Shown here: positions 19,401 through 62,988 of the stretch, piece after piece
Layout of the letters: each line of letters starts with the position of its first letter
How positions within the stretch are numbered: position 1 is the stretch's first letter
Source of the DNA: Alphaproteobacteria bacterium
Lineage (GTDB): Bacteria; Pseudomonadota; Alphaproteobacteria; Sphingomonadales; Sphingomonadaceae
Assembly (NCBI GenBank): GCA_030424845.1
Contig: JAUHWC010000002.1
Span: 186,001 to 250,000, forward strand
DNA: 64,000 nucleotides
Direction of reading: 5' to 3'
The notes under the pieces: generated by a model
What the model saw: only the letters and a program-made list of their open reading frames with translations
The model's database searches: none
Told to the model about the DNA's origin: nothing
Position numbers and translations under genes: made by a program

Positions 19401-19653
19401 AGGAACCCCCGCGCTTTGGATCATCGTTCGTCACGCGAGAACGGGTGCATACCGGGACGCAAAAGAGCCGCACTCCAAACGCAAACCCCCGGGCCGCATG
19501 GTGTGCAGCTTCAACATAAGCGTCGCGAATATGGCGAGCGCCGCTTCCATTCTTGGCGCGATCCCCGCGCATGAATCGGTCCGGCTCGAAGCTGGCGTGT
19601 GAGGGTGCATTTAGGGGGGATGTTGGATTTGTAAAGGGGGAGTATTTCTGGTC

Positions 19654-19875
19654 CGCACGCCATCCGGCGTGCGATATCCTCGCTCACGCGGCCTGACGGC
19701 CGCATCGCTGCGGGCGCGCGGTCACGCTTGCGACGCCTGCGGCGTCGAACCAGCACACCGGTCTCTGCGTGTGGGAAGGCACGGTTGCGCCAGCAACCGC
19801 AAGGGCGGCCGCCCGCCCGCAGCGGGTGCAGCTCGCTGCACGCATAGCGAGGACGTGCAGCCGGATGGCTGCACG
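19654..19875. repeat. array of consecutive short perfect inverted repeats (hairpins)
   Basis: cgcacgc/gcgtgcg, gcggcc/ggccgc, cgacgcc/ggcgtcg, cggttgc/gcaaccg, gggcggccgccc, cccgc/gcggg, gtgcagc/gctgcac, cgtgcagcc/ggctgcacg in about 220 bp. Confidence 0.8.
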
Positions 19876-19984
19876 GAAAACAATAAACGTCATATCGTTT
19901 TTCAATATTATTGATTGACAATAAATCGAATCGGCTGTAGCTGCGGATTATCGATAAACAATATGTCATTTAAAGGAGATCGAT

Positions 19985-61746: not shown

Positions 61747-61763
61747 CCCGGATCAAGTCCGGG
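61747..61763. repeat. REP-like inverted repeat (cccgga-tcaag-tccggg)
   Basis: gctggaacccggatcaagtccggggtgacg. Confidence 0.6.
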
Positions 61764-61777
61764 GTGACGTCGGTTTG

Positions 61778-62000
61778 TTTTGGCCCCTCAGGCGCCGGGC
61801 GCAGCGCATCCGCGCTGCTTGGCTTGGCCTATGGCCGTCTTCGACTCCGCCCTACCGGGCGGCGCATGGTCATGCGCTGGCGACGCGTTCCGCATCTTGT
61901 TTATTTTGGCCCCTCAGGCGCCGGGCGCAGCGCATCCGCGCTGCTTGGCTTTCGCCCTACCGGGCGGCGCGCGGTCGCGCGCTGGCGACGCGTTCCGCGC
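61778..62000. repeat. two-copy tandem repeat composed of hairpin modules
   Basis: Identical 47 bp block at 61778-61824 and 61904-61950, then diverged shared hairpins and ggcgacgcgttccgc. Confidence 0.85.
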
Positions 62001-62185
62001 CGCGAACATTCCAAGCCAAGCAGCTCGCGCCAAGGTTCCTGGTCACGGCAGTCAAAGGCCGACTGGCCGCCCGCAGGGGCCCCGAAGCGGAGCGGAGGGA
62101 TGCGCCCCGGAGGACGCTCCGGCAGATGCCGGAGTATGAAACAAAAACTGTCACCCAAAAGACTCACACCAGAATCCACGGAGCC

Positions 62186-62286: not shown

Positions 62287-62988
62287 ATGCGTGTGCTGCT
62301 GATCGAAGACGAGCCGACAACCGCCAAGGCGATCGAGCTGATGCTCACCACCGAAGGCTTTAACGTCTACTCCACTGACCTGGGCGAGGAAGGCCTCGAT
62401 CTGGGCAAGCTGTATGACTATGACATCATCCTGCTGGACCTGAACCTGCCGGACATGCACGGCTATGACGTGCTCAAGAAGCTGCGCGTCGCCAAGGTGC
62501 AGACGCCGGTGCTGATCCTTTCCGGCATTTCGGAAATGGACAGCAAGATCCGCTCGTTCGGCTTCGGCGCCGATGACTACGTGACCAAGCCCTTCCATCG
62601 CGATGAGCTGGTTGCCCGCATCCACGCCGTGGTGCGTCGTTCCAAGGGCCACAGCCAGTCGGTCATCCGCACCGGCAAGCTGGCGGTGAACCTGGATGCC
62701 AAGACCGTTGAAGTCGATGGCGCCCGTGTGCACCTGACCGGCAAGGAATATGCGATGCTGGAGCTGCTCAGCTTGCGCAAGGGCACGACCCTTACCAAGG
62801 AAATGTTCCTGAACCACCTTTATGGCGGCATGGACGAGCCCGAACTCAAGATCATCGACGTGTTCATCTGCAAGCTGCGCAAGAAGCTCTCCAGCGCATG
62901 CGGCGGGGACAACTACATCGAAACCGTGTGGGGCCGCGGCTATGTGCTGCGCGATCCTGATGCGGAAGAAGAGACGGCAGCAGCCTGA
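62287..62988 (+). CDS. ctrA: cell cycle response regulator CtrA
   Basis: [80 protein letters not shown]...[13 protein letters not shown]. Confidence 0.95.

Follow-up and report, generated by a model that had tools for sequence, protein, structure and literature searches.

The hairpin-rich repeat upstream of ctrA in the 64,000-nucleotide window, the whole stretch of DNA that we analysed, does not look like a local oddity but like one member of a dispersed family of small DNA elements that are, or once were, mobile. We consider it probable, at roughly 0.6, that the repeat is an interspersed element of the MITE/BIME type, non-autonomous and built as a mosaic of palindromes. This explanation is supported by the dispersal of the copies, by covariation in their stems, by occupied and empty orthologous sites, by TNA duplications in relatives and by the restriction of the family to one class.

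The element spans 61774-62148 and has the arm order S-S-E. Its parts, its neighbour gene and the arms of a second element in the window are as follows.

61774-61785, + strand: T-rich left end of the first S arm (TTTGTTTTGGCC); a T-rich flank is also found at S ends in congeners
61786-61880, + strand: S arm copy 1, matching the S-arm model (R1) at 70.5 bits
61801-61818 (loop ATCC), 61848-61861 (loop TACC) and 61862-61877 (loop GGTC), + strand: hairpins of S arm copy 1
about 61825-61845, + strand: 21-nt module nested in S arm copy 1, also in copy L009 on contig C7
61900-61911, + strand: T-rich left end of the second S arm (TTTATTTTGGCC)
61912-61985, + strand: S arm copy 2, matching R1 at 97 bits and forming a row of alignment A3
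61927-61944, 61953-61966 and 61967-61982, + strand: hairpins of S arm copy 2
61986-62053, + strand: S-to-E linker, with an equivalent stretch in other copies
62054-62138, + strand: E arm, matching the E-arm model (R2) at 90.5 bits
62117-62134, + strand: hairpin closing the E arm, loop AGAT; most other copies have GGAT
62138-62148, + strand: A-rich right end (gaaacaaaaac), immediately next to the conserved region upstream of ctrA
62287-62988, + strand: ctrA, outside the element (NCBIfam NF045991, 425 bits, cut-off 350)
19651-19730, - strand: E arm of the second window element, inverted (R2, 33.6 bits, E = 1e-4)
19800-19877, + strand: E arm of the second window element (R2, 47.4 bits, E = 2.5e-7)

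The first-pass annotation had described a 47-bp block, identical at 61778-61824 and 61904-61950, and this is correct, with the match extending to 53 bp at 98%. It had also read the third hairpins accurately, as gcgcat-ggtc-atgcgc at 61862-61877 and gcgcgc-ggtc-gcgcgc at 61967-61982. Both copies do continue alike after the block, with the correction that the 21 extra bases of the nested module precede cgccctaccgggcg in copy 1. The closing hairpin was placed properly and its loop is redrawn here (ctccggc-agat-gccggag). The proposed kinship with 19654-19875 is borne out by the two E-arm matches there, which form an element of two inverted E arms (19651-19877), the only symmetric element in the window.

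The repeat unit is ~75-110 bp long and consists of three or four hairpins whose loops and linkers are conserved, also across orders, and whose stems are variable yet paired. The S arm is ordered CCTCARNCGCCGGGCG, stem-ATCC-stem, CTTGGCTT, a hairpin with loop TAMC and a hairpin with loop GGTC, and the E arm CGCCCGCAG, a hairpin, GAGGAC and stem-GGAT-stem. The end hairpins of S and E have a common loop, ATCC when read from outside being GGAT when read from inside, and are interchangeable at element ends. An element may consist of a lone arm, an inverted pair or arms in tandem; in the genus its ends resemble TTTGTTTTG and CAAAACAAA, and it is flanked by T-rich sequence on the left and A-rich sequence on the right. 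The loop of the E hairpin, GGAT in the host genome, is GGAG or GGAC in some congeners (L026, L039, L041 and L043 versus L010-L021); it looks uniform within species, and the stems differ between copies.

About 20 copies are dispersed over the 2.83-Mb host genome. The element at ctrA found at least 18 matching places in it by blastn, and the covariance models matched 15 S arms and 16 E arms, so that the anticipated modular palindromic family with further copies does exist. In the window the next match to the own-genome S model scored 13.6 bits, versus 97 and 70 bits in the element, which together with the blastn matches argues that the repeat beside ctrA is not a product of chance. The suspected tie to ctrA itself was not upheld: the copies that we read sit between genes or beside tRNAs (tRNA-Arg, -Thr, -Gln and -Leu), with locations that include the upstream regions of ctrA and ftsK (thiE-ftsK), rsfS-rlmH, rnpA-rpmH and tRNA ends. 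Among these neighbours, ctrA, rpoN, lptB, rsfS and the tRNAs were matched by models, and the other gene names were taken from sequence and context. No conserved ORF was seen within the copies read. Stems mostly differ among copies in the host genome, and recent copying there is therefore not obvious.

The S model, which was trained on the genus itself and gives lower bounds on range, matched 29 of the 37 genomes sampled from the genus (8 of the 37 had no R1 match), 19 of 289 genomes in a class-wide sample and 9 of 399 in a phylum-wide sample, the last all Alphaproteobacteria. A degenerate DNA pattern found at least 119 stretches in public genomes; among the matches listed were Sphingomonadales, Rhodospirillales, Acetobacteraceae and MAGs named only as Alphaproteobacteria or Proteobacteria. 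Searches of phage and plasmid collections gave no match to the element. A chance repeat, or gene conversion between the two neighbouring copies only, has nothing in its favour beyond the view of these two copies, and with covarying copies across the genome and the class we regard its probability as negligible.

Evidence for mobility comes from more distant genomes. In one of these, G074, a 146-bp unit that includes the S arm is found at sites that are unrelated and differ in their flanks. The unit ends in TACC...GGTA (one copy starts with TGCC), and all five complete copies have identical 3-bp flanks (TAA, TTA, TAA, TCA and TTA). Draft contigs of this genome (L304-L311) break off at copies of the unit, which is what a high-copy repeat would produce. 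A second group, mostly from the Rhodospirillales MAG CAIXKV, has ~147-bp units with similar ends, and 5/8 have identical TNA flanks. Overall, identical 3-bp TNA flanks were found in 10 of the 13 copies counted, L077 having been excluded as a false regex match, versus a mean of 3.8 by shuffled pairing (P ~0.0004). The inverted ends and the 3-bp TNA target duplications thus show that elements with an S arm have transposed in more distant genomes; this applies to the TACC-ended relatives, with the TTTGTTTTG-ended form of the host genus standing apart. In that genus we could show neither a target duplication nor an exact empty site, and the ends differ from the TACC ends. Long imperfect inverted arms occur in L161 and L128. 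In L107 an ORF enclosed by two inverted arms was considered as a candidate autonomous element and dismissed, since it looked like an ordinary host gene.

The helper gene that had been suggested was not found. A domain search for Y1_Tnp/RAYT detected none in the host genome, and RAYT was present in three of 40 congeners, in none of them flanked by elements. We therefore rejected RAYT as the helper, as it is absent from the host genome, rare in the genus and not near elements. Some IS5-family groups make 3-bp TNA duplications, which gives a lead only.

To follow the elements at orthologous positions, four sites (ctrA, rsfS-rlmH, rnpA-rpmH and thiE-ftsK) were each read in 30 genomes of the genus. 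The E model matched at rsfS-rlmH in 21/30. Elements there usually start just past the stop codon, and many run almost up to where rlmH begins; they vary in orientation and module combination, with arms in both orientations at the one site. The spacer is almost nil in L225 and L229, and in L206, L218 and L228 the site is taken up by another kind of palindromic repeat (CCCTCCCGC...GCGGGAGGGG). The rnpA-rpmH site is occupied in ~24 of the 30 genomes and thiE-ftsK in 15, with L268-L270, L274, L275, L277 and L288 element-free at the latter. At ctrA, 11/30 are occupied by the model and ~14/30 by eye, and the elements are always distal to the conserved ctrA upstream region. Short element-free versions thus exist at orthologous gene pairs in some species. 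From the occupancy of the four sites we conclude that many copies have been inherited in place with strong internal turnover, and that others have been gained or lost.

The first-pass annotation had further held that stem pairing is maintained, and that the two copies beside ctrA record a local compensatory change. The first part stands. In ten S units of the host genome (alignment A3), 98.3% of cells are paired, slid controls being near zero, and two-sided changes number 25 versus 9.1±2.1 in shuffles. Because related rows inflate covariation scores, a second set was built from a single orthologous hairpin in twelve species, namely the one nearest downstream of the rsfS stop codon; here 96.3% is paired, with 29 two-sided changes versus 9.1±2.0 shuffled. 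The second part does not hold. Contig C7 carries another S-S locus, whose first arm holds the 21-nt module; the third hairpin is again of ATG type in the first arm and of GCG type in the second, and since the same pair of types recurs at this second locus, the difference between copies 1 and 2 is not a local change. The ATG-type and GCG-type hairpins are thus two old subtypes.

Such pairing might be selected in RNA, if the arrays were structured 3’-UTR elements acting in mRNA downstream of genes through stability, termination or translation coupling. If selection acted on a single RNA strand, G-U pairs should be tolerated. The 176 H1 hairpins collected from all loci, which have 76 different stems, contain 889 Watson-Crick pairs, and the mismatches read on the ATCC strand are 4 GT, 12 AC and 38 other; 87 E hairpins contain 545 Watson-Crick pairs, with 11 GT, 6 AC and 44 other mismatches on the GGAT strand. 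Summed on the GGAT strand, GT outnumbers AC by 23 to 10 (p 0.035), a weak lean, and other mismatches exceed both. Because mismatches of other kinds outnumber the rare G-T wobbles, the pairing appears to be kept mainly as DNA and not as one-strand RNA, and we infer that it is held at the DNA level through recognition or through template-switch correction.

The positions of the hairpins offer the RNA explanation some support. Among 31 congener E ends with a nearby ORF stop, 16 have the hairpin starting exactly 8-9 nt past the stop codon, a count inflated by repeated orthologous sites and drawn from six or more loci. At rpmH the array finishes with a hairpin resembling an intrinsic terminator, plus TTTT. 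T tails are confined mostly to this site, however; arms occur in both orientations at a single site, and an Rfam covariance-model search with the element returned no match at E up to 1. We therefore think a role as structured RNA unlikely. As a general function intrinsic termination seemed unlikely too, with T tails found mostly at rpmH, and a terminator scan of the ctrA element gave one site versus 1.0 expected. In L245, L247, L249, L254 and L260 the rpmH-site array closes with a classic intrinsic terminator (CGGGCTCC-loop-GGAGCCCG-TTTT), suggesting that this array may have been co-opted.

The covariation could also have arisen without selection or transposase recognition, if these were old neutral insertions whose arms are matched by quasi-palindrome correction, that is, by template switching at replication. 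The near absence of one-sided intermediates is in keeping with this, as are stem differences between copies that fit arm-to-arm copying and the vertical descent with turnover at rsfS-rlmH. Neutral decay, however, would not be expected to leave loops and linkers conserved across orders, and relatives have near-identical copies with target duplications; as a full account we judge this quite improbable. Quasi-palindrome correction may nevertheless coexist with a mobile element as the cause of the covariation.

If the family is a non-autonomous mobile element, the copies in the host genome would have spread like those of the distant relatives, by a transposase acting in trans that may since have been lost. 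The hairpin shape together with its loop would be the feature recognised, and copies would persist through their intergenic position, often starting right after a stop codon. A bolder version, which we offer as a rather unlikely conjecture, is that the hairpin arm is the recognition module of a trans-acting enzyme reading folded single-stranded DNA, and that this arm has been carried by two or more kinds of element that differ in their ends, as a class-wide mobile-DNA system without RAYT.

Several known repeats resemble this family. Like REPs and BIMEs (GTAG REPs), it consists of dispersed intergenic palindromes that occur singly or as inverted pairs and form mosaics, but its arms are ~75-110 bp long with three or four hairpins, and the host genome has no RAYT domain. 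No GTAG lies beside the hairpins in the flanks read, which were CCTCA...CGCCGG, GAGGACG or TTTGTTTTG, and the family was not classed as a GTAG REP. The RIME of rhizobia is likewise an intergenic mosaic palindromic element, of ~108 bp, similar in general description. MITEs are non-autonomous transposable elements with TIRs and TSDs (PMC10969869). The present elements resemble them in being short, without coding capacity and present in multiple dispersed intergenic copies, and the distant S-arm relatives (G074 and the CAIXKV MAG) also have TACC...GGTA inverted ends and a 3-bp TNA duplication. It is thus these relatives that have the defining MITE characters, and the copy in the window can be likened to them through the common S arm; in contrast to MITEs, the family has an internal multi-hairpin arm with constant loops and free stems, and different ends in the host genus.

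We set the family apart from CGTC REPs and CIR by their published definitions. CGTC REPs (Di Nocera 2013) have an 8-9-bp stem that begins with AT and is preceded on its 5’ side by a CGTC tag, and a CCA tail (PMC3733652). They too are typical of Alphaproteobacteria and form hairpins with 4-5-nt loops, without a known dedicated transposase (PMC3733652), but the tag, the AT-starting stem and the CCA tail are all absent from the E and S hairpins. The CIR of Caulobacter and Brucella (Chen and Shapiro 2003) is also ~110 bp with inverted-repeat arms, intergenic and alphaproteobacterial, and has a conserved GANTC in a loop (PMC2229807); GANTC is depleted here, in 7/61 and 11/153 units versus 12.8 and 32.5 expected. 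As proposed for BIMEs and CIRs, the elements could be sites of chromosome organisation, binding gyrase, IHF or a methylase. The intergenic, dispersed palindromes would fit this by analogy with what is established for BIMEs, but the genus genomes without an R1 match and the under-representation of CcrM sites (GANTC) make it very improbable. A literature search confined to open-licence papers found none describing this repeat, and our best reading is of a MITE/BIME-like mosaic palindromic family not found described in the papers searched.

If this reading is right, the repeat family is spread across several alphaproteobacterial orders and sits right next to core genes (ctrA, rpmH, rsfS and ftsK). 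It would then provide a test case for whether palindromes are maintained by selection, transposase recognition or template switching, and could be used to mark intergenic turnover near conserved operons. It would also be a caution that covariation alone is no proof of structured RNA.

Two smaller features accompany the elements. The 21-nt mini-module TTGGCCNNTGGCCGTCTTCGACT is nested in arms at three loci, in the window at ~61825-61845, in L009 at ~1840 and in L245 at ~1204, where it lies inside the body of an E arm with CTCCG on both sides. Directly upstream of the ctrA element, at 61747-61769, lies a palindrome resembling CGTC REPs (CCCGGATCAAGTCCGGGGTGACG).
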